NCBI RefSeq assembly: GCF_011492945.1
Contig: NZ_CP045119.1
Location: 2,294,001 to 2,358,000 of the forward strand
Source: Rubrobacter tropicus
Lineage (GTDB): Bacteria; Actinomycetota; Rubrobacteria; Rubrobacterales; Rubrobacteraceae
DNA: 64,000 nt
Direction of reading: 5' to 3'
The notes beneath the pieces were generated by a model that was not told the DNA's origin, did not search any database, and saw only the letters and a list, made by a program, of their open reading frames with translations. Below, piece by piece: positions 42,178-53,989 of this stretch. The stretch's first letter is position 1. Every line of letters starts with the position of its first letter. A program made the translations under genes and the position numbers.

Positions 42178-43611
42178 CTAGCCCAGGCCCGATCCGCCGG
42201 CAAGGGCGGAGATCGGGACGATGAGGAGGAAGAACAGCGCCGTCAGCAGCGCCAGCGCGTACACGGAGAACTTTACCGCGCCGCCCCCGGGCGGCTCGGC
42301 GGCGTCGAGCGTCGGCTTCTCGAAGAACATGTTGCGGATAATGCCGAAGTAGTAAGGAACCGAGATGACGCTGTTCACGACCAGCGCGCCAACCACGACG
42401 TAGACCAGCACCGATCCGGACTGGGCGCCGGAGAAGATGATCCAGGCCTTCCCCCAGAACCCGCTGAAGGGCGGGATTCCGACGAGCGAGGCCATAAAGA
42501 CGCCCATGCTGGCCGCCAGCGCGGGCCTGGTGCGGAACAGCCCGTTGAAGCTCTTCGCTTCCTCTCCGACGAGATCTATTACGAGGAACGCGCCGATGTT
42601 CATGAACGCGTAGGCGGCGGAGTAGATCAAGACGGCCTCGACCGCCCGCCCCGTTCCCTGCCCCTGCAACGCCGCGAACGCGGCCAGGATGTACCCCGAA
42701 TGCGCCACCGAGCTGTAAGCAAGCATCCGGCGCACGTTGCGCTGCCTGAGCGCCGCCAGGTTGCCGACGAACATCGTAAGTATCGCGAGGAACGCCATCA
42801 CCGCCGTCCACGTCGGCGCGGCCTCGGGCATTCCTTCCAAAAGGATCCTGAGCAGTATCGCGAAGGTCGCCGCCTTGGGCGCGACCGAGAGGAACGCGGC
42901 GGCGCTCGTAGGTGCGCCCTGGTAGGCGTCCGGGGTCCAGAAGTGGAAGGGCGCGGCCGAGACCTTGAAGGCGAAGCCGGAGAGGAGGAGCACGAGGCCG
43001 AGGAGGGCGACGGGCGTAAGGCCGCCGGAGAAGGTCCGGGCCACGTCGTCGAGTTGGGCGGAGCCGGAGACGCCGTAGATAAGTACTATGCCGTAGAGCA
43101 GCACCGACGAGGCGACGACGCCGGTTATCAGGTACTTCATCCCGCCCTCGGCGCTCTCCCGGCGCCTCCGGTCGAAGGCGACCATCGCGTAAGAAGGTAT
43201 CGTCGCGAGCTCTATCGCGAGGAAGACGCCGAAAAGGTCGCGCATGGAGACGAGCAGGATGGAGCCGAGGACTACGGCGAGGATGAGCGTCAGGTATTCC
43301 GGGGCGTCGCCCGTGTTGCCGGACCAGCGGGCGGCGGCGAGCACGGCGAAGAAGGCGCTGCCGGCCACGATCAGCTTGAAGTACAACGCGAAGTTGTCCA
43401 CCACGAAACCGCCGCCGAAGTACTCTCCCTCGAACCCGGCCGCGAGCAGACCGGCCGCGCTGCCGAAGACGGCGAGCGTACCGAGGGCCGCGAGGCCGGC
43501 GACGAGCCCGATGCTGTTCTGGAAGAAGACCCCTACCATGAGGACCCCTATCAGGAACCCTATTGCCACCAGCTCCGGCAGGAGCGCGACGAAAGTCTGC
43601 CCGGTAACCAC
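42178..43611 (-). CDS. nuoN: NADH-quinone oxidoreductase subunit N
   Basis: 477 residues, about 14 membrane helices. One of the three antiporter-like proton-pumping subunits of complex I. The conserved family segments include G-M-K-Y-L-I-T-G-V-V-A-S-S-V (with the key Lys), F-K-V-S-A-A-P-F-H-F-W-T-P-D-A-Y, and R-M-L-A-Y-S-S-V-A-H-S-G-Y. The GTG start overlaps the nuoM stop by one base. It is the last nuo gene. Confidence 0.95.
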   Translation of the reverse strand: MVTGQTFVALLPELVAIGFLIGVLMVGVFFQNSIGLVAGLAALGTLAVFGSAAGLLAAGFEGEYFGGGFVVDNFALYFKLIVAGSAFFAVLAAARWSGNTGDAPEYLTLILAVVLGSILLVSMRDLFGVFLAIELATIPSYAMVAFDRRRRESAEGGMKYLITGVVASSVLLYGIVLIYGVSGSAQLDDVARTFSGGLTPVALLGLVLLLSGFAFKVSAAPFHFWTPDAYQGAPTSAAAFLSVAPKAATFAILLRILLEGMPEAAPTWTAVMAFLAILTMFVGNLAALRQRNVRRMLAYSSVAHSGYILAAFAALQGQGTGRAVEAVLIYSAAYAFMNIGAFLVIDLVGEEAKSFNGLFRTRPALAASMGVFMASLVGIPPFSGFWGKAWIIFSGAQSGSVLVYVVVGALVVNSVISVPYYFGIIRNMFFEKPTLDAAEPPGGGAVKFSVYALALLTALFFLLIVPISALAGGSGLG

Positions 43612-45065
43612 TAGCCACCCCCTATCGCGCTAAGAACGGCCTCGACACCCGGACGCTGCACGCTCACCAGGAGCGCCGGGAAGACCCCGAACAGGACGAG
43701 CAACACCGCGAGCGGCACCGCCGCAGCCATCTCCATCGGACCTGCGTCCTCGATAGCCTCGTAGGCGGGCCTCTCTATCGGCCCGAAGACGACGCGGGCC
43801 AGCATGTAGAGCAGGTACATCGCCGAGAGCACGATGCCGAGGGCGGCAAGTACTCCCTGCACCGGGAAGGCCTCGTACCCGCCCATTATGCTCATGAACT
43901 CCGAGACGAAGACGGCGAGCCCCGGCAACCCCATCGCCGCCATGGCCCCGAGCGCCAGCAGGCCGCCGGCCCACGGCATCCTGGCCGCAAGGCCGCCGAG
44001 CTCCCGAATCCGCCGCGTCCCGGTCCTCGCCGCGATCACGCCGACGAGCACGAACAGCAGCGCCGAGTACAACCCGTGCGTTACCTGCTGCAAGACCGCC
44101 CCGTTCAGGCCGACCGCGTTACCGGACGCCGCCCCGAGCAGGATGAAGCCAAGGGTCCCGATGGACGAGTACGCGACGAGCGCCTTCAGGTCGGGCTGCA
44201 AGAAGGCCACGAACGCGCCGTAGACGATGTTTATGACCCCGAACGCCGCCAGGTATGGCAGAAAGGGCTCGACACCCTCTGGCAGGAGCGGTATGGCAAC
44301 CTTGATCAGGCCGTAAGTTCCGAGCTTGGGCAGGATGCCGGAGAGAACTACGTTCGTGGAGATCGGGCTCGAGACGTAGACGTCGAGCAGCCAGCCGTGC
44401 AGCGGGACCGCCGGGACCTTTATAAGCAGGCCGAAGAGAATCGGCGCGGCTATCGCGATCTGGGCCGTCCGTCCCAGGCCTCCGCCCGCCGTCAGCGAAT
44501 CCATGGCGTAGGTGCCGGCGAGGATGCCGAAGGCGAGGAAGCCCGCGAGCATCACGGTGCTCCCGAGGAACGTGTAGACGAAGAACTTTATGGCAGCCTG
44601 GCGGCGGTTCTGGTCGCCCCAGATGCCGACGAGGAGGTACATGGGTATTAGCGTGATCTCGAAGAAGATGTAGAAGAGGATCAGGTCTTCGGACGCGAAC
44701 ACGCCTAACATCCCGACCTCGGCGATGAACAGGATCGCGAAGTACTGCTTGAGGTTCTCCCGCACGTCGTAAGACGCGACGACGGCGATGAGCGTCAGGA
44801 GCGCCGTCAGGAAGAACATCCCGAACCCGAGGCCGTCGAGCCCGACCCTGTAGCCCATGTTGAGCGACGGGATCCAGTCGAAGTCCTGGGTGAGCGACGG
44901 TACGCCAAGACCGCTCCCGTAGGCGAAGTAGATGTAGAGCGTTAGCAGCAGCGGTACGGCCGCCACCGCGAGCGCCGCGTAGCGCAAGGGTCGCTCTTGC
45001 TCGGGGAGCAGGAGCATCAGGATGGCGCCGATCAGCGGGATAAAGATGGTTATCGTGGTGATCAC
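43611..45065 (-). CDS. nuoM: NADH-quinone oxidoreductase subunit M
   Basis: 484 residues from GTG 45065, whose GTGA overlaps the nuoL stop. Antiporter-like subunit with the family segments S-E-D-L-I-L-F-Y-I-F-F-E-I-T-L-I-P (membrane Glu), F-L-L-I-K-like L-L-I-K-V-P-A-V-P-L-H-G-W-L-L-D and K-A-L-V-A-Y-S-S-I-G-T-L-G. Thirteen to fourteen helices. Forms part of the proton-pumping arm. Confidence 0.95.
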   Translation of the reverse strand: MITTITIFIPLIGAILMLLLPEQERPLRYAALAVAAVPLLLTLYIYFAYGSGLGVPSLTQDFDWIPSLNMGYRVGLDGLGFGMFFLTALLTLIAVVASYDVRENLKQYFAILFIAEVGMLGVFASEDLILFYIFFEITLIPMYLLVGIWGDQNRRQAAIKFFVYTFLGSTVMLAGFLAFGILAGTYAMDSLTAGGGLGRTAQIAIAAPILFGLLIKVPAVPLHGWLLDVYVSSPISTNVVLSGILPKLGTYGLIKVAIPLLPEGVEPFLPYLAAFGVINIVYGAFVAFLQPDLKALVAYSSIGTLGFILLGAASGNAVGLNGAVLQQVTHGLYSALLFVLVGVIAARTGTRRIRELGGLAARMPWAGGLLALGAMAAMGLPGLAVFVSEFMSIMGGYEAFPVQGVLAALGIVLSAMYLLYMLARVVFGPIERPAYEAIEDAGPMEMAAAVPLAVLLVLFGVFPALLVSVQRPGVEAVLSAIGGG

Positions 45066-47053
45066 AGCTTCACCCCCACCGCGAAGGCGGCTATCGTTAT
45101 CACCGCGATCAACGCAACCACCATGAACGCGTACTGCGCCCCGACGATCACACCTATAACGAGCACGGCGAGCAGGATGAACAGCGCGTAGTTCTGAACG
45201 CCGCCGGTCTGAAAACGCTGAAGCAGACCGCCGACGCCCATCGCCGCCCTCCCGATCCCACCGACGAGACCGCCGACGGCGACCCTCCGGTCGAAACCGT
45301 TGGTCGCCCGCCCGAGCCACCTGGCCGCACGGACGAAGGTCGCCCCATAGAGCGCGTCAAAGTACCAACCCTTATCGAGAAACGTGTGTACCGGCGCGAA
45401 CCTGCGCGCCAGCGCCCCTGATCGCTCGGGTTTCTGGACGTAGAGCGCGTAGGCGAGGCCTATGCCCAGCAACGCCACGAGGACCGACACCCCGCCGAGG
45501 GCGAAGCTGAAGGAGTGCTCTTCGAGGTCGAGGGTCCGCGTCGCGAACTCGCTCGGCGTGACGAAGGCGGAGAAGTAGTCCCGGATCGGGAGCCCGAAGC
45601 CCTCCGGAATACCGACCCAGCCGCTCACTACGGAGAGGAAGGCCAGGATCAGCATCGGGCCCGTCATGATGCCGGGCGACTCGGTGGCGTTTCGCGCGGC
45701 CTCCGTCCGGGGTTCCCCGGTGAAGGCCACGAAGATCGCGCGGAAGATGTAGAACGCCGTAAGGAAGACGGTCAACAATGCCATGGCGAAGAGGACGTAG
45801 AGGTGCTCCTCATAAGCTGAAGCGACTATGGCGTCCTTGGACCAGAAGCCCGCGAACGGGAAGATCCCCGAGAGCGAGAGCCCTGCCAGGATCATCGCCC
45901 AGAACGTGATCGGCATCCTGCGCCTCAACCCGCCCATCTCGAACATGTTGTACGAGTCCATCGCGTAGATGATGCTGCCCGCGCACAGGAAGAGCAGCGC
46001 CTTGAAGAAGGCGTGGTTGTAGAGGTGGAAGACGCCCGCCGTGTACGAGCCGATCCCGAGCCCGAGCATCATGTACCCGAGCTGGGAGACGGTCGAGTAG
46101 GCGATGACCCGCTTGATGTCCTTCTTGACCAGCGCCATCGTCCCGGCCATCAAGGCCGTGAACCCACCGATGTACGCCACGACGAGCATCGCCGCCGGGC
46201 TCTGCACGAAGATGTCGAAGGTCCGGGCCACCAGGTAGACCCCGGCCGCGACCATCGTCGCCGCGTGGATGAGCGCGGAGACCGGCGTCGGGCCCTCCAT
46301 GGCGTCGGGCAACCAGACGTGAAGCGGGAACTGGGCGCTCTTGCCGATGGCCCCCACAAAGACCATCACCACGGCCGCCGTGAACAGCGAGCCTCCGATA
46401 AAGCCCGCCTGGGCCGCCTGCGAGATGTCCTCGAAGCCGACCGACCCGGTCGTTGCCCAGAAGATGATTATGCCAACGAAAAGCGCAGCATCCCCGACCC
46501 TCGTCACAATGAAAGCCTTCTGCGCCGCGTCGCGGGCCGAGGGCTTCTCGTACCAGTGGCCGACCAAAAGGTACGAGCAGACGCCGACAAGCTCCCAGAA
46601 GATGTAGAGCTGGATAAAGTTGGGCGCCAAGACCAGGCCGAGCATCGAGGCCGTGAAAAGGTTGAGGACGGCGTAGAACCAGGCGAAGCGCTTGTCGCCC
46701 TCCATAAAGGCGCCTGAGTAGAGCTGGATCATGAGGCTGACCAGGCACACCACCACGAGCATCACGGCCGCCAGGCCGTCGATGTAGACACCCATCGAGA
46801 ACGAGCCGCCCGCGCCCAGGTCTATCCAGGGCTTGGAGAACGCGATGGGGTCGCCGTCGGCGCCACCGGGGAGCCACCCGGCCACCCACGCGAGCGCGAA
46901 GGCCGAGAAGACGAGCGAGATCGTCACCCCGAGGATCGCGACGTACTGGGCGTTCTCCTTCAGGACGCGCCCGAAGAGCACGAGCACCAGAAAGACCAGC
47001 GCCGGAAGCGCGGGAATCGCGGTGATTATCAGTTGTTGGCCTACCGTCTCCAC
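45062..47053 (-). CDS. nuoL: NADH-quinone oxidoreductase subunit L
   Basis: 663 residues: fourteen-helix antiporter-like core, then the long lateral helix and final TM (last 100 residues). Motifs F-W-E-L-V-G-V-C-S-Y-L-L-V-G, F-P-L-H-V-W-L-P-D-A-M-E-G-P-T-P-V-S-A and V-I-A-Y-S-T-V-S-Q-L-G-Y are those of NuoL. It sits at the far end of the membrane arm. 15 bases separate it from nuoK. Confidence 0.96.
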   Translation of the reverse strand: METVGQQLIITAIPALPALVFLVLVLFGRVLKENAQYVAILGVTISLVFSAFALAWVAGWLPGGADGDPIAFSKPWIDLGAGGSFSMGVYIDGLAAVMLVVVCLVSLMIQLYSGAFMEGDKRFAWFYAVLNLFTASMLGLVLAPNFIQLYIFWELVGVCSYLLVGHWYEKPSARDAAQKAFIVTRVGDAALFVGIIIFWATTGSVGFEDISQAAQAGFIGGSLFTAAVVMVFVGAIGKSAQFPLHVWLPDAMEGPTPVSALIHAATMVAAGVYLVARTFDIFVQSPAAMLVVAYIGGFTALMAGTMALVKKDIKRVIAYSTVSQLGYMMLGLGIGSYTAGVFHLYNHAFFKALLFLCAGSIIYAMDSYNMFEMGGLRRRMPITFWAMILAGLSLSGIFPFAGFWSKDAIVASAYEEHLYVLFAMALLTVFLTAFYIFRAIFVAFTGEPRTEAARNATESPGIMTGPMLILAFLSVVSGWVGIPEGFGLPIRDYFSAFVTPSEFATRTLDLEEHSFSFALGGVSVLVALLGIGLAYALYVQKPERSGALARRFAPVHTFLDKGWYFDALYGATFVRAARWLGRATNGFDRRVAVGGLVGGIGRAAMGVGGLLQRFQTGGVQNYALFILLAVLVIGVIVGAQYAFMVVALIAVITIAAFAVGVKL

Positions 47054-47068
47054 TAACCTGTCACCTTT

Positions 47069-47428
47069 CTAACCCCTCATCGAGGTGACTTCGTCCACGT
47101 TCACGGTCCTTCTGGACCGAAACACGGCCAGCACTATAGCAAGCCCCACCGCTATTTCCGCCGCGGCGATGGCTATGACGAGAACCGCGTAGCTGACCCC
47201 GAGACCTCCGGCGTTCGGCAGAAAATCCGCGAAGGCGACGAGCGTGAGGTTGACGCCGTTTATCATCAACTCGACGCACATGAAGATGACCACGGCGTTC
47301 CTGCGCACCAGCGCCCCCCACGCCCCGATGGCGAACATGATCGCCCCGACGATGAGGTAGGCCTCGAGCGCGGGGGAAGCCAGAAGCGCGTCGAGCACGG
47401 CCTGGACCTGCGGCGGCACCTGCGGCAT
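47069..47428 (-). CDS. nuoK: NADH-quinone oxidoreductase subunit K
   Basis: 119 residues, three helices. The two membrane glutamates of the family are seen in M-C-V-E-L-M-I-N-G-V-N-L and in A-A-A-E-I-A-V-G-L-A. Slightly longer than the usual 100 at the N-terminus. The ATG shares one base with the nuoJ stop. Confidence 0.94.
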   Translation of the reverse strand: MPQVPPQVQAVLDALLASPALEAYLIVGAIMFAIGAWGALVRRNAVVIFMCVELMINGVNLTLVAFADFLPNAGGLGVSYAVLVIAIAAAEIAVGLAIVLAVFRSRRTVNVDEVTSMRG

Positions 47429-47964
47429 TACTCCTCCACCCCCCGGTCAACACCCGTGCCGACCTTCCTGCGGCTCACCACGATGGCGGCGACGATGGCG
47501 ACCAGCAGCAGCACCGAGACTACCTGGAAGAGCAGCGTGAAGATCTCCGACCCCGGCGCGACCCCGAGAAGCTGACGCCCGAGCTGGCCCACCTGCCGCG
47601 GCCCGTTCCCCGGCGCCACTGAACCCCAGTCCTCGATAAACAGCACGTAAGACAGGAACGCCCCGACACCGGCGGCCACGCACAAACCGGCCCAGAACTG
47701 GCGGTTGATGATCGTGCGGTAGCGCTTCACCTGCGGCCTCTGGGTGAACATGATGCCGAACAGGATCACCACGGTAACCGCGCCGACGTAGATCAAGACC
47801 TGAAACGCCGCGAGCGCCGGCGCGTTCAACATGACGAAGAACCCCGAAACCCCGAGGAAAGACCCCGACATGAACAGCGCCGAGTGGACCACGTTCCGGC
47901 TGACGACGACCCCGAAGGCGGAGACGAGCACCATCCCCGCCAAAAACCCGAACGCGATGGTCAA
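47428..47964 (-). CDS. nuoJ: NADH-quinone oxidoreductase subunit J
   Basis: 178 residues from TTG 47964, which overlaps the nuoI stop as TTGA; the longer upstream frame is not family-like. Five helices, with V-V-S-R-N-V-V-H-S-A-L-F and I-Y-V-G-A-V-T-V-V-I-L-F-G-I-M, the pi-bulge helix region of NuoJ/ND6. Confidence 0.93.
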   Translation of the reverse strand: MTIAFGFLAGMVLVSAFGVVVSRNVVHSALFMSGSFLGVSGFFVMLNAPALAAFQVLIYVGAVTVVILFGIMFTQRPQVKRYRTIINRQFWAGLCVAAGVGAFLSYVLFIEDWGSVAPGNGPRQVGQLGRQLLGVAPGSEIFTLLFQVVSVLLLVAIVAAIVVSRRKVGTGVDRGVEE

Positions 47965-48446
47965 GCCGCCGCCTCTTTCTTCGGCGCCTTCTTCGCGACC
48001 TTGGGCTTCTTTTTGACCGCGGGCTTGGGGTCTATCGTCGGGTCCACGGGGCGCTCGCCGAACTGGCGGGCGAGTTCCAGGCGGTTGTAAGCCTGCGCCT
48101 CGAACTCCTCTGTGTGGTAGATGCAGTTGACCGGGCAGACCTCGACGCACAGGGAGCAGTACATGCAGCGGGAGTCGTCAATGACGAAGCCGACCGCGTA
48201 GGGTTTCGCCTTGCCTGAGCCGTCGGCGTCGCGTTTCTCCTGTTCGATGGAGATGCAGTGGTCCGGGCAGATGCGCATGCACTGGAGGCAGGCTATGCAG
48301 CGGTCCATGTCCACCGTGAGCATCCCGCGGCTCCGCTCCGGGAGGTCGCGCTTGTACTCGGGGTACTGGCGGGTGATCTTGTTCTGAAAGAGGTGGCGGA
48401 TGGTTACCCCCATCCCCTTCAGGATTCCCTGTCCTACCTGCGGCAT
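47961..48446 (-). CDS. nuoI: NADH-quinone oxidoreductase subunit I
   Basis: 161 residues. Two [4Fe-4S] motifs, C-I-A-C-L-Q-C-M-R-I-C-P (about 51-62) and C-M-Y-C-S-L-C-V-E-V-C-P (about 93-104), carry electrons to the quinone site. The C-terminal 25 residues are a Lys/Ala/Pro-rich basic tail not found in standard NuoI. It begins ten bases after nuoH. Confidence 0.95.
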   Translation of the reverse strand: MPQVGQGILKGMGVTIRHLFQNKITRQYPEYKRDLPERSRGMLTVDMDRCIACLQCMRICPDHCISIEQEKRDADGSGKAKPYAVGFVIDDSRCMYCSLCVEVCPVNCIYHTEEFEAQAYNRLELARQFGERPVDPTIDPKPAVKKKPKVAKKAPKKEAAA

Positions 48447-48456
48447 ACCATCACTC

Positions 48457-49467
48457 CTAGTTGCCCGGGATCACGAGCATCGCGCCGGCCGTGACGAACA
48501 GCCAGACGAGGGTTATAGGGACGAGCACCTTCCAGCCGAGGTCCATGAGCTGGTCCATCCTGAGGCGCGGCAGGCTCCAACGGATCCACTGGAACGTGAA
48601 CATTATGAGCGCCGTCTTGAGCCCGAACCACAACCAGTTGAAGGCCCCGAGGTCGAGGAACGGCAGCGGCGGCTGCCAGCCGCCGAGGAAGAGCGTCACG
48701 TTGATGGCGGACATCAGGCCCATCGAGGCGAACTCGGCGGCCTGGATCAGCGCCCACGTCATCCCCGAGTACTCGACCATGAAGCCGCCGACGATCTCGC
48801 TCTCGCCCTCCGGCAAGTCGAACGGCACGCGCTTCACCTCGGCGAGCCCTGCGATGTAGAAGGTGAGGAACATCGGCAACTGCGGCAGGAAGTACCACGT
48901 CCAGAACGTGCTCCCCTGGGAGTTCACGACGTCCACGAACGAGAGGCTCCCGGTGAGCATGATGACCCCGAGGAGGCTCAGGATCAGGGGCACCTCGTAA
49001 GAGATCATCTGCGCGGCACCCCTCAACGCCCCGAGCAACGAGAACGTCGAGCGGCTCCCGTACCCGGCCATAACGACGCCCAAAGCTCCTATCGAGGTGA
49101 CCGCCACGAAGAAGAGTATCCCTACGTTCAGGTTCGCCACAACCGCGTCGGGCGCGAACGGTACGACCATCCACACGAGCGCTGCGGGCAGGAACATCGC
49201 GATCGGCGCCCCGAGAAAGACCCACAAATCGGACCGTCCCGGATGGACGTTTTCCTTCGTGAACAGCTTGAACACGTCCGCCGCCGGCTGCAAGAGCCCG
49301 CGCGGCCCAACCCTGTTCGGCCCGTACCTCAGATGAATGTAAGCGGACGCCTTCCGCTCTGCCATCGTCAGGATCGCAGCCAGGTTCAACACCAGGAAGA
49401 GCACCGCCCCGAAGGAGACGAAGAGCCGGATCGGCTCCGTTTCGAGCAGGTTCAGAACGGTCTGCAT
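48457..49467 (-). CDS. nuoH: NADH-quinone oxidoreductase subunit H
   Basis: 336 residues, eight helices. E-R-K-A-S-A-Y-I-H-L-R-Y-G-P-N-R-V-G-P near 55-72 and P-F-D-L-P-E-G-E-S-E-I-V-G-G-F are the quinone-channel signatures. The ATG lies directly next to the nuoD stop. It links the peripheral arm to the membrane arm. Confidence 0.96.
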   Translation of the reverse strand: MQTVLNLLETEPIRLFVSFGAVLFLVLNLAAILTMAERKASAYIHLRYGPNRVGPRGLLQPAADVFKLFTKENVHPGRSDLWVFLGAPIAMFLPAALVWMVVPFAPDAVVANLNVGILFFVAVTSIGALGVVMAGYGSRSTFSLLGALRGAAQMISYEVPLILSLLGVIMLTGSLSFVDVVNSQGSTFWTWYFLPQLPMFLTFYIAGLAEVKRVPFDLPEGESEIVGGFMVEYSGMTWALIQAAEFASMGLMSAINVTLFLGGWQPPLPFLDLGAFNWLWFGLKTALIMFTFQWIRWSLPRLRMDQLMDLGWKVLVPITLVWLFVTAGAMLVIPGN

Positions 49468-50655
49468 CTACTTGTCCCAGCCGCCGGAGACCGGGTCGAC
49501 GAGGCCCATGATCGGCATGATGTCGGGCAAATAATGCCCCGGGATGACCTCCTGCAACAACTGCATGTTGCAGAAGCTCGGGTCCCTGTAATGGACCCTG
49601 TAAGGGGTGTCCGACCCGTCGGAGACGATGTGGACGGCGAACTCCCCGCGCGGGCTCTCCACCCGCCCGAACCCGTCGCCCTCCTTCGGCCGCAGCCTGC
49701 GCCCAAGATCCCCCATCACGGCGCCCTCTGGCATCTTCTCCAGGCACTGCTTTATGAGCCTGATGCTCTGCAGGCACTCCGCGATGCGCACCCGGTACGA
49801 GGCCTCGACGTCGCCCGCGGTGTCGGTGATGACGTCGAACTCGAGTTCGGGGTAGATGCTGTACGGGTAGTCGCGGCGGAGGTCGAAGTCGACGCCGGTG
49901 CAGCGGAGGGGCGGGCCCGTCAGGCCCATCTCGACGGCCTTCTCCGGGGTCATCTTGCCGACCCCGCGGGTGCGGGAGATAAAGATCTCGTTGCCCTGAA
50001 TCAGGTCGACGAAGTCGTTCTTAAACCTCGACTCCAGGCCCTCGATGTAGTCCCAGATCTTCTGAGGGATGTCCGGCGGAAGGTCGGCCTTCACACCGCC
50101 TATCCTGATGTAGTGGAACATCATCCTGGCCCCGGTTACGGCCTCGAAGATGGTCTGTATCCGCTCCCGCTCCCTGAAGGCGTACAGTATCGGGGTGAAA
50201 GCCCCGAGCTCCAGCATCAAAAAACCGATGGAAGGGATGTGGCTCGCCAGGCGCATCAGCTCGCACATCAAAACCCGGATGTACTCGGCCCGGGGTGGGA
50301 TCTCCACGTCCAGCAAGTCTTCCACCGCCAGGACGTAGCCGTGCTCGTTGTGCATGTTGGCGAAGTAGTCGAGGCGATCCGTCAGTGGAATGACAGCCGG
50401 GTACATGCGGTTCTCGGCGATCTTCTCCTGACAGCGGTGCAAATATCCCATCACGGGGTCGCACCTGACGACGGTCTCGCCGTCGAGCTCCAGGATGAGC
50501 CGCAGAAGGCCGTGCATGGCCGGGTGCTGCGGGCCCATGTTCATGTCTATGGTTTCGAGGCCGAACTCGTCGCGGACGTCGGGGGTCGCCAGACGGCCGG
50601 TTGGCGGCTCTGAGAGCGCGCTCTGCTGCTCGGCGCGGCGTTCTTCGCTAATCAT
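49468..50655 (-). CDS. nuoD: NADH-quinone oxidoreductase subunit D
   Basis: 395 residues. Separate from nuoC, not fused. [11 protein letters not shown] quinone-site loop near 40-50 and the C-terminal [11 protein letters not shown]. It forms the quinone-binding pocket with NuoB and NuoH. Three bases after nuoC. Confidence 0.96.
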
Positions 50656-50658
50656 CCT

Positions 50659-51150
50659 CTACCTCAGTCCCTCGAAGGTGCGCCTGGTCGAGATCTCGAA
50701 GCTCTTCAGGAGCGGGTGGTGGTCGAAGTGGTCCTGCCACATGTAAAGCCGCCTCAGGTCCGGATGCCCGGCGAACGCGACCCCGAACATGTCGTAGGCC
50801 TCCCGCTCGTGCCAGTTGGCCGTCGGGTAGATCGCCGTGGCCGTCCCTATGACCGGCTCGTCCCCCTCGACGGTGGTCTTCAGGTTCACCCGCGCCCCGC
50901 GAAAGTCTATCAGCGCGTAGGTGATCTCGAACGACCCGACCCTGTCCACCACCGTGATGAACGAAAGGTGAGGTATCCCGAGCACCTCCTTCGCGGTGGC
51001 GAGCACAGCCGGAACGTCCCCGGGCGCGGCGACGACCCTGACGGCATCCCCAACGATCTCGGACTCCAGCAACCCGTGCCGGCTCCCGAAGCCGTCCAGA
51101 TAACGCTTGAGCCGGTCTTCCAGCGTCCCCTCCGGCATCGTGAAAGCCAT
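50659..51150 (-). CDS. nuoC: NADH-quinone oxidoreductase subunit C
   Basis: 163 residues from ATG 51150, two bases after the nuoB stop; the frame continues upstream through nuoB in another phase. W-H-E-R-E-A-Y-D-M-F-G-V-A-F-A-G-H-P-D-L-R-R is the family signature, followed by an aromatic- and His-rich end. Structural subunit of the connecting module. Confidence 0.94.
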   Translation of the reverse strand: MAFTMPEGTLEDRLKRYLDGFGSRHGLLESEIVGDAVRVVAAPGDVPAVLATAKEVLGIPHLSFITVVDRVGSFEITYALIDFRGARVNLKTTVEGDEPVIGTATAIYPTANWHEREAYDMFGVAFAGHPDLRRLYMWQDHFDHHPLLKSFEISTRRTFEGLR

Positions 51151-51152
51151 CC

Positions 51153-51950
51153 TCAGGCCTTCCCGCCGCCGGTCTCGCCGTCGGCCGAGCCCGCCTTTTC
51201 CGCCTCGGCCTTCGCGGCGGCCTCCTTCTCGGCGGCCTTGCGGGCCCGCTCTTCTTCCTTCAGTTTCTTCTTGACCTCGTCCGGGACCCAGCCGACGTCC
51301 GTCTGGGAGGCGGGCGGCATCCCCTCGCGCTCGAAGACGTAGGTGCGCTTGAGCGGCCTTATGCCCTCCAGGCGCGGGGCCTTGCCCTCGCTGATGCCGG
51401 AGTACTCGCGCTCGGGGAGGTACTCGTTGATCGAACCGTCCTCGTTCACCAGCGCCGGACGGACCTTCTCGATACCGACCTGCTGGTCGCGCTCTATCTT
51501 CTTCTGGAGCGTCATGATGCCGAAGATAAGGGCTTCGGGTCTTGGCGGACAACCCGGGACGTAGACGTCGACCGGGATAACCCTGTCCGCCCCCATCAGG
51601 ACGGAGTAGCCGTCCAGAAACGGGCCGCCGGAGATGGCGCAGGCGCCCATCGCTATCACCCACTTGGGCTCGGGCATCTGCTCGTAGAGGCGGGTCATGC
51701 GCTCGGCCATCTTGGTCGAGACGGTGCCCGAGACGATCATGACGTCGGCCTGGCGCGGGGAGGCCGTGAAGAACCCCGCCCCGAAGCGGTCGAGGTCGTT
51801 GTGGGCCATACCCGTGCTCATCATCTCGATGGCGCAACAGGCGAGGCCGAACTGGAGCGGCCACAGCGAGTTCTTGCGCGCCCAGTTGAAGAGTTTGTCC
51901 GTGCTCGTCGTGACGATGTTCGGCTCTTTGAACTGCTGCATTACACCCAT
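51153..51950 (-). CDS. nuoB: NADH-quinone oxidoreductase subunit B with long charged tail
   Basis: 265 residues. The core (about 1-160) has the N2 cluster ligands: the Cys pair in [18 protein letters not shown], and [10 protein letters not shown]. The remaining 100 residues are unusual: a segment with [10 protein letters not shown] and then an Ala/Glu/Lys-rich helix ending in Gly. Standard NuoB is 160-220. It overlaps nuoA by ten bases. Confidence 0.95.
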
Positions 51951-52330
51951 TTAAGGGCCCCCTTCTTCCAGGCGTAGGCGAGGCCGACGGTCAGGATGGA
52001 GACGAAGATCACCATCTCCACGAAACCGTAGAGCCCGAGGTCCTGGTAGACCACGGCCCACGGATACAAAAACGCCGCCTCCACATCGAAGATGAGGAAG
52101 AGCAGCGCGAAGACGTAGTAGCGAACCGGGAAAGGGCGCCAGGGGTCCGTGACGGTGGACTCCCCCGTCTCGTAAGTCTGGGCCTTCGTCCAGGACTTGC
52201 GGCTTGGGGAGATCAGGCGCGCCAGGACCAGGACCGTGGCTATAAAACCGGAGATCAAGAGCATAAAGATCCCCACGTACAGGTAGAGCATCCCGTAAGA
52301 AGTTCCCTCCTGCAACAGACCTAGACTCAA
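51941..52330 (-). CDS. nuoA: NADH-quinone oxidoreductase subunit A
   Basis: 129 residues, three helices. [12 protein letters not shown] and [13 protein letters not shown] are the NuoA hallmarks. TTG start (52330) with GAAAGGG upstream; ATG at about residue 14 is an alternative but would cut into the first helix region. First gene of the operon, 30 bases from the promoter -10 box. Confidence 0.94.
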
Positions 52331-52360
52331 ACCGACCCTTTCTACCCGAGAACTGCCCGC

Positions 52361-52389
52361 AATATACTCGTGTCGGAAAAAACTTTCAA
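52361..52389 (-). promoter_or_regulatory. Promoter of the nuo operon
   Basis: On the minus strand TTGAAA (52389-52384), 17 bases, TATATT (52366-52361). A good sigma-A promoter. It is back to back with the ferredoxin promoter about 105 bases away. Confidence 0.7.
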
Positions 52390-52492
52390 GGAGGCACTAA
52401 CGGTAGCAAGCGGATGTTAAAGACCCGGGGCCGCCGCCCGCGCGAACCGGACGAGGATCGCCGTCGCCCTTCTCCGGCGGCGCCCTCTTCTA

Positions 52493-52520
52493 TTGACAGG
52501 GTTTCCGCATTGGTTAGACT
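52493..52520 (+). promoter_or_regulatory. Promoter of the ferredoxin gene
   Basis: TTGACA (52493-52498), 16 bases, TAGACT (52515-52520). The perfect -35 lies where a naive start (its TTG) would put the coding region, so translation must begin later, at TTG 52559. Confidence 0.7.
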
Positions 52521-52558
52521 GCCTGTCGGGGAAGCTGGAGTCAAAAAGGGGAGCCGCC

Positions 52559-52822
52559 TTGGCCTACGTCATAACCGAAGCGTGTATCGGCACGAAGAAC
52601 ACGGCTTGCGTGGGGGCATGCCCGGTCGACTGCATCTACGATGCCGATGACCACTTCGTGATCAACCCGGCCGAGTGCATCGACTGCTCCATGTGCATGC
52701 CGGAATGCCCGGTCGAGGCGATCTACCCCGGCGACGAGGTCCCCGAAGACATGCAGCGTTACGTCACGAGGGCGGCCGAGTTCGACTACTCGACGACCGC
52801 GCCGGGCGTCGAGGTCAACTAG
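52559..52822 (+). CDS. Ferredoxin with 3Fe-4S and 4Fe-4S motifs
   Basis: 87 residues from TTG 52559, with AAAGGGGA seven bases upstream. M-A-Y-V-I-T-E-A-C-I-G-T-K is the standard opening of the 7Fe ferredoxin family. First motif C-x7-C-x3-C-P, second C-I-D-C-S-M-C-M-P-E-C-P. It is a low-potential electron carrier in the cytoplasm. It is divergent from the nuo operon and six bases upstream of an RnfC/NuoF-like gene, so it may carry electrons to or from complex I. Confidence 0.93.
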   Translation: MAYVITEACIGTKNTACVGACPVDCIYDADDHFVINPAECIDCSMCMPECPVEAIYPGDEVPEDMQRYVTRAAEFDYSTTAPGVEVN

Positions 52823-52828
52823 CCGATC

Positions 52829-53989
52829 ATGGCCGAGATAAAGCAGCGCAGCCTCGAAGAAGTAAAAGCATTGAGCGTCGAGGAGGCCGTGGAGATCATG
52901 CGCCAGGCCGGCATCGTCGGCGCGGGCGGCGGCGGTTTTCCGACCTACTTCAAGTACAAATCCCCGCTGCCGCACCTGATCGTGAACGCCACGGAGAGCG
53001 AGCCGGGCTACTGGGGCGACAAGCTCCTACACAAGCAGTACCTCGAGGAGTTCCTCTCGCTCTTCGAGGCGATGAAGGCGATCTTCGGGTTCGAGCAGAT
53101 CTCGATGGGCGTCCACGAGAAGGACCGGGAATGGTTCGCCGACTACGCCGAGCACGCGGACGACGGCGTCTTCGATATCCGCTACGTGCCGAACACCTAC
53201 GCCCTGGGCGAGGAGAAGACCCTCGTCAAGCACGCCACCGAAGCGAGGGTGCCCCGGTTCGTGGACACCCCGGACGGCATGAGGCGCCCGGGGATGCCGC
53301 CAGACGTCGGCAAGGTCATCAACAACACGGAGACCCTTCTCAACGTCTACAACGCGCTCTTCCTCGGCAGACCCCTGACCACCAAGTTCTTCACGCTCTA
53401 CGGCGAGGAGATCGAGACGAAGGTTTACGAGACGCCGATAGGCGCGTCGGTGGGCGAGGTGCTCGGGATTGCGGGTCTCGACGTCGAGAACTCGGGCCAC
53501 CTCTCGGTCCTGGACGGCGGGCCTTACCTGCACGACGTGAGCATCGAGGAGGTGGGAAACGGCGACGCCTACGTGCGCCGGATGACCAACGCGCTCTTCG
53601 TTATCCGTCGTGGCAGGAAGGGCAAGGAGTACGCCGGGATAGCGACGGAGGTTCCCGAGGAGGGAACCGTCTCCCTGGTCGGCAAGATCTCGGGCGTCAA
53701 CCTGCCCCTCGGCGGCGGCCTGTTGAAGCCGGCGACGCCGCTCGTCTCGGAGGGCGAGGAGGTCGAGTACGGGCAGAAGATAGGAGAACCCGTCGACGAG
53801 GGCTTCTCCATCGGCGTCTGGGCGAGCGTTGGCGGTGAGATCTCCTCCATAGAGAACGACGTAGTCGCCATCTCCGGCGGCGCGATCCCGCAGGAGGAGG
53901 CCGAAGCCGAGGCCGAGCCAACCATGGCCGGCGGCGACTCGCCGAGGGGCGAGGCCGAGCCCTTCTCGGAGGCCGATTCGAGCAGGTAG
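52829..53989 (+). CDS. RnfC/NuoF-like flavin-domain protein without iron-sulphur motifs
   Basis: 386 residues. Residues about 25-170 resemble the FMN/NADH-binding domain of RnfC and the 51-kDa subunit (G-I-V-G-A-G-G-G-G-F-P-T-Y, then N-A-T-E-S-E-P-G-Y). About 200-240 is SLBB-like (P-I-G-A-S-V-G-E-V-L). About 290-350 is a barrel-sandwich (biotinyl-like) domain (P-A-T-P-L-V-S-E-G-E-E-V, G-Q-K-I-G-E-P), followed by an acidic tail. RnfC has the barrel-sandwich domain first and a Cys cluster last. Here the order is reversed and no cluster motif exists. An oxidoreductase module for NAD(H) and the neighbouring ferredoxin is likely, not proven. Confidence 0.7.
   Translation: MAEIKQRSLEEVKALSVEEAVEIMRQAGIVGAGGGGFPTYFKYKSPLPHLIVNATESEPGYWGDKLLHKQYLEEFLSLFEAMKAIFGFEQISMGVHEKDREWFADYAEHADDGVFDIRYVPNTYALGEEKTLVKHATEARVPRFVDTPDGMRRPGMPPDVGKVINNTETLLNVYNALFLGRPLTTKFFTLYGEEIETKVYETPIGASVGEVLGIAGLDVENSGHLSVLDGGPYLHDVSIEEVGNGDAYVRRMTNALFVIRRGRKGKEYAGIATEVPEEGTVSLVGKISGVNLPLGGGLLKPATPLVSEGEEVEYGQKIGEPVDEGFSIGVWASVGGEISSIENDVVAISGGAIPQEEAEAEAEPTMAGGDSPRGEAEPFSEADSSR

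Follow-up and report, generated by a model that had tools for sequence, protein, structure and literature searches.

What delivers electrons to a complex I that is built of 11 subunits? The literature describes the direct donor as not yet settled, and reports that a previous attempt to find one donor shared by such enzymes was unsuccessful (PMC11238625). The window analysed here, a stretch of 64,000 nucleotides of Rubrobacter tropicus DNA, encodes such a complex in an operon of nuoABCD and nuoHIJKLMN by gene content. Divergent from it run a small ferredoxin gene (fdx) and the rnfC-like gene of a protein here called the flavoprotein. The features, in window coordinates, are as follows.

42178–43611, minus strand: nuoN (PF00361)
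43611–45074, minus strand: nuoM, start approximate (PF00361)
45062–47053, minus strand: nuoL (PF00361/PF00662)
47069–47428, minus strand: nuoK (PF00420)
47428–47970, minus strand: nuoJ, start approximate (position between nuoI and nuoK; conservation in relatives)
47961–48446, minus strand: nuoI (Fer4 domains)
48457–49467, minus strand: nuoH (PF00146)
49468–50655, minus strand: nuoD (PF00346)
50659–51150, minus strand: nuoC (PF00329)
51153–51950, minus strand: nuoB (PF01058)
51941–52330, minus strand: nuoA (PF00507)
52331–52558, no strand: intergenic region between the divergent nuoA and fdx, probably their control region (from the sequence)
52559–52822, plus strand: fdx, FdxA-like ferredoxin of 87 aa with a 7Fe [3Fe-4S][4Fe-4S] Cys pattern (Pfam/NCBIfam; TTG start likely)
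52829–53989, plus strand: RnfC/PduS/NuoF-related flavoprotein-like gene without Fe-S ligands, 386 aa, clade A (ORF, translation, Pfam, tree and AlphaFold)
52901–53350, plus strand: Complex1_51K (FMN-binding) domain, residues 25–174 (Pfam E 4e-28; motif alignment)
53351–53614, plus strand: putative SLBB-like middle region, about residues 175–262 (spanned by the structural alignment to RnfC chains)
53699–53869, plus strand: C-terminal barrel-sandwich hybrid (RnfC_N, PF13375), residues 291–347 (Pfam E 3.4e-8, over cut-off)

No nuoE, nuoF or nuoG occurs in the window's nuo operon, and none is inserted between nuoD and nuoH. The NuoF cluster domain PF10589 is absent from the window genome and from all 39 Rubrobacteraceae genomes searched, and the NuoE-type PF01257 gives a single weak match elsewhere in the window genome. 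Complex1_51K genes number only two in this genome, both being members of the flavoprotein family. The neighbours of the flavoprotein gene are fdx, nuoA–N, an M20 peptidase gene, murA and ATP synthase genes, with none of rnfABDEG among them. In genome G109, ABC transporter-like and regulator-like genes (L123:2528–6436) separate the M20 peptidase gene from nuoA, the two being adjacent in other genomes.

The open reading frame of the flavoprotein starts with ATG. It is a real, conserved gene and not a chance one, because the family profile matches 33 of the 39 Rubrobacteraceae genomes with a large score gap to outsiders. The profile search covered 396 genomes of the phylum, these 39 included. Full-length copies score above 600 bits, and the best score outside Rubrobacteraceae is 130 bits.

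The original prediction read the protein as an RnfC relative with permuted domains and without any Fe-S cluster, and much of this holds up. The barrel-sandwich domain is indeed C-terminal, as Pfam locates it, so compared with RnfC, in which this domain is N-terminal, the order is permuted. SLBB has no Pfam match in the 386-aa protein, and its place in the middle is deduced from how the fold aligns with RnfC chains across that region. The window protein contains zero Cys, as had been claimed, while family members contain 0–3 and the family alignment has no invariant Cys column. Pfam finds no NuoF C-terminal 4Fe-4S domain (PF10589) in the protein, and its best NCBIfam model is rnfC, at 128 bits under the cut-off of 246.

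What does not hold is the implication that this domain order is unique. PduS is arranged as 51K, SLBB, Fe-S and barrel-sandwich, both in the loci tested here and in a 2007 paper that set the C-terminal barrel-sandwich of PduS against the N-terminal one of RnfC (PMC1796856). In the PduS loci L139 and L140, which adjoin microcompartment shell-like genes, 51K, SLBB, Fer4_17 and RnfC_N follow in order, and RnfC_N has the same position relative to 51K as in the window protein. The domain order is thus already known from PduS, and what sets the protein apart is its lack of an Fe-S domain and its genomic context.

An AlphaFold model of the flavoprotein, built from 45 homologues, has a mean pLDDT of 83 and a pTM of 0.85. 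Foldseek ranks RnfC first (E 1e-13) and NuoF-type subunits next. By VIA-align the model fits RnfC over 245 residues (Z 22.4, 2.6 Å) and NuoF with Z of about 18. Modelled alone, as the original prediction had suggested, the flavoprotein is predicted to have the NuoF/RnfC FMN-binding fold. The detail of the pocket remains tentative because its glycine loop at residues 33–35 has a pLDDT below 50.

The motifs were compared in an alignment of the family with NuoF and RsxC of E. coli, five PduS proteins and five further RnfC proteins. The family keeps GAGGGGFP, ESEPGYW.DK, Y..GEE and NN.ETL, all invariant or nearly so across 45 sequences. Among the residues, E56-S57-E58-P59-G60, D64, Y124, G127-E128-E129, N166 and E168 are invariant. 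GEE, EPG and ETL agree with NuoF and not with RnfC, which has other letters, while PduS has GDE; this NuoF-type character of the site had been overlooked. The motif conservation supports a working flavin/nicotinamide site, short of proof.

No close relatives were found beyond Rubrobacteraceae, either in the profile search of the 396 genomes or in a contig scan with two specific peptide patterns, which distant relatives in other phyla could escape. The scan picked up 43 loci, each in a record with Rubrobacter, Rubrobacteraceae or unclassified Actinobacteria in its title. Judged by sequence, the family is a distinct clade, known only from Rubrobacteraceae among the genomes searched. A tree built on the 51K-SLBB part puts the family (91/92) and PduS (99/98) in separate groups, with RnfC also apart, and the exact root of the family is unsure because of long branches.

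In the 50-member family tree, a branch with strong support (100/99) separates two clades, A and B, and each is represented once in the window genome. Its clade-B copy (L003:8061–9179, minus strand) is 62% identical to the clade-A copy and has no ferredoxin or nuo gene alongside. Clade B as a whole shows no evident functional neighbour. Three draft genomes (G195, G237 and G270) have two clade-A copies each, all with fdx, and these may come from duplication or mixed strains.

The fdx gene ends 6 bp ahead of the flavoprotein ATG. Its product would carry the 7Fe set of clusters by its Cys pattern, and its matches to the NCBIfam FdxA models are below cut-off. Where the upstream sequence is long enough for a test, every clade-A copy (18 of 18) has fdx directly upstream, versus none of the 31 clade-B copies. 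This supports the neighbouring ferredoxin, which is a real gene, as the partner put forward earlier. The ferredoxin linked to the flavoprotein also forms a paralogue of its own, with 75–99% identity versus about 62–73% for the other copies; additional FdxA-like copies are present in Rubrobacteraceae genomes. Simple gene fission, with fdx as an excised PduS domain, is disfavoured as fdx is FdxA-like.

The strongest evidence is that two different arrangements each tie the fdx–flavoprotein pair to complex I. In the window's relatives, the clade-A pair is divergent from nuoA–N. In L113, L114 and L116, the gene order is nuoI, fdx and the flavoprotein gene. L113 and L114 represent genomes G011 and G041, each complete in one contig, whose nuo operons (L118 and L119) are without nuoI and have H–J gaps of 15 bp and 116 bp. 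The single NuoI match in either genome is the relocated copy beside the pair.

The R. taiwanensis genome has two nuoI, one in the operon (L115:8990–9469) and one beside the pair (L116:9441–9992), which is possibly an intermediate state; its L116 cluster also appears as L077. In L117, fdx, the flavoprotein gene and nuoI share a strand, and an ORF of the opposite strand lies among them. In the clade-B-only genomes, nuoI stays in the operon with no adjacent fdx. Neither the lack of NuoF nor this link of the pair to the 11-subunit complex I was part of the original prediction.

Other genes were seen around these loci. A plant-type 2Fe-2S ferredoxin gene is convergent with the flavoprotein gene and downstream of it in G011 (L113:8302–8646) and G041 (L114:7893–8438). 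A peroxiredoxin-like ORF, named by eye, is near the nuoI, fdx and flavoprotein genes in two lineages, at L077:8197–9036 and L117:1087–1788.

We lean to the view that the flavoprotein and the ferredoxin form an electron-input module that replaces NuoEFG in the 11-subunit complex I. The fold, the motif conservation, the absence of NuoF and the linkage argue for it. The flavoprotein would bind FMN in its NuoF-like pocket and oxidise NADH, or perhaps NADPH. Free of clusters itself, it would give up electrons one at a time to the 7Fe ferredoxin of the adjacent upstream gene, and the ferredoxin would dock on NuoI and hand them to the NuoI clusters, then on to quinone. The electron route is probably from NADH through FMN and ferredoxin to NuoI. 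Rubrobacteraceae would then have a third kind of N-module, a split one in which a flavoprotein without Fe-S clusters and a separate 7Fe ferredoxin, NuoI-bound or shuttling, replace NuoE, NuoF and NuoG; for this wider statement the chances seem evenly balanced.

No PF01558, a domain present in 2-oxoacid:ferredoxin oxidoreductases, was found in the window genome, so a nicotinamide electron source is favoured and ferredoxin reduction by such an enzyme is rejected. It counts against the module that many Rubrobacteraceae with the 11-subunit complex have only an unlinked clade-B copy and no fdx beside nuo, so complex I can do without the dedicated pair. Clade-B proteins might fill this role by using a pool ferredoxin. 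The presence of candidate NDH-2-type dehydrogenases also weakens the case, since the flavoprotein route is then not needed for NADH oxidation, and so does PduS, which has a similar architecture but another function.

The adjacency of fdx, which is the strongest linkage of all, could also mean a soluble enzyme, an NAD(P)H:ferredoxin (or ferredoxin:NAD(P)+) oxidoreductase with the task of balancing pools or of supplying P450s and other proteins that use ferredoxin. In that case complex I would draw reduced ferredoxin, if at all, from a shared pool. FdxA-like ferredoxins are general carriers, the genomes hold other copies of them and clade B is solitary, all of which would suit such an enzyme. 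However, both arrangements join clade-A pairs to complex I genes, the relocation of nuoI included, and the ferredoxin of these pairs is a paralogue set apart from the others, so we regard the soluble enzyme as rather unlikely.

The missing Fe-S ligands and the linkage to nuoI would fit a complex I assembly or regulatory factor that has lost catalysis. This is improbable given the flavin/NAD-site motifs, invariant or nearly so in the 45 aligned sequences, and the dedicated ferredoxin partner. The domain order common to PduS might instead suggest a PduS-type reductase of a corrin or another small molecule that stands near nuo by chance. Yet the Fe-S domain is missing, the family falls outside the PduS clade, no microcompartment genes are alongside and the motif is the NuoF-type GEE, not the GDE of PduS, which together make such a reductase very improbable.

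As part of a proposed input module of complex I, the flavoprotein family is a lineage-specific donor candidate for the 11-subunit enzyme, with genetic linkage. No description of the pair was found in the literature searched on Rubrobacter, complex I and RnfC. With R. taiwanensis and R. marinus among their named strains, Rubrobacteraceae make the donor question testable. If the proposal is true, complex I did not simply lose its NADH module; other parts were recruited in its place.

Membership of the flavoprotein in RnfC, PduS or NuoF is rejected, as at least one tested feature disagrees with each. RnfC/RsxC is the best structural match (Z 22) and shares the 51K, SLBB and barrel-sandwich domains, but RnfC has its barrel-sandwich at the N-terminus and two 4Fe-4S clusters at the C-terminus, and the flavoprotein has neither. 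PduS, the cobalamin reductase, shares the order of 51K, SLBB (by structure only in the flavoprotein) and C-terminal barrel-sandwich. Unlike the flavoprotein, PduS has a di-cluster 4Fe-4S domain between SLBB and barrel-sandwich, resides in microcompartment loci, carries the GDE motif and belongs to a separate clade with a different function.

NuoF/Nqo1, the 51-kDa subunit of complex I, resembles the flavoprotein in the FMN-binding 51K fold (Z about 18), the GEE, EPG and NN.ETL motifs and the genomic link to complex I. The flavoprotein differs from it in lacking PF10589 and adjacent NuoE or NuoG genes and in having the barrel-sandwich domain. The 11-subunit complex I-like enzymes of Desulfitobacterium and the cyanobacterial NDH-1 likewise have a core without NuoEFG and a ferredoxin donor suspected or described (PMC11238625), whereas in Rubrobacteraceae the complex is genetically linked to a pair made up of a flavoprotein and a ferredoxin. 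The flavoprotein family is a new branch of the NuoF/RnfC/PduS superfamily with a probable input role in complex I.
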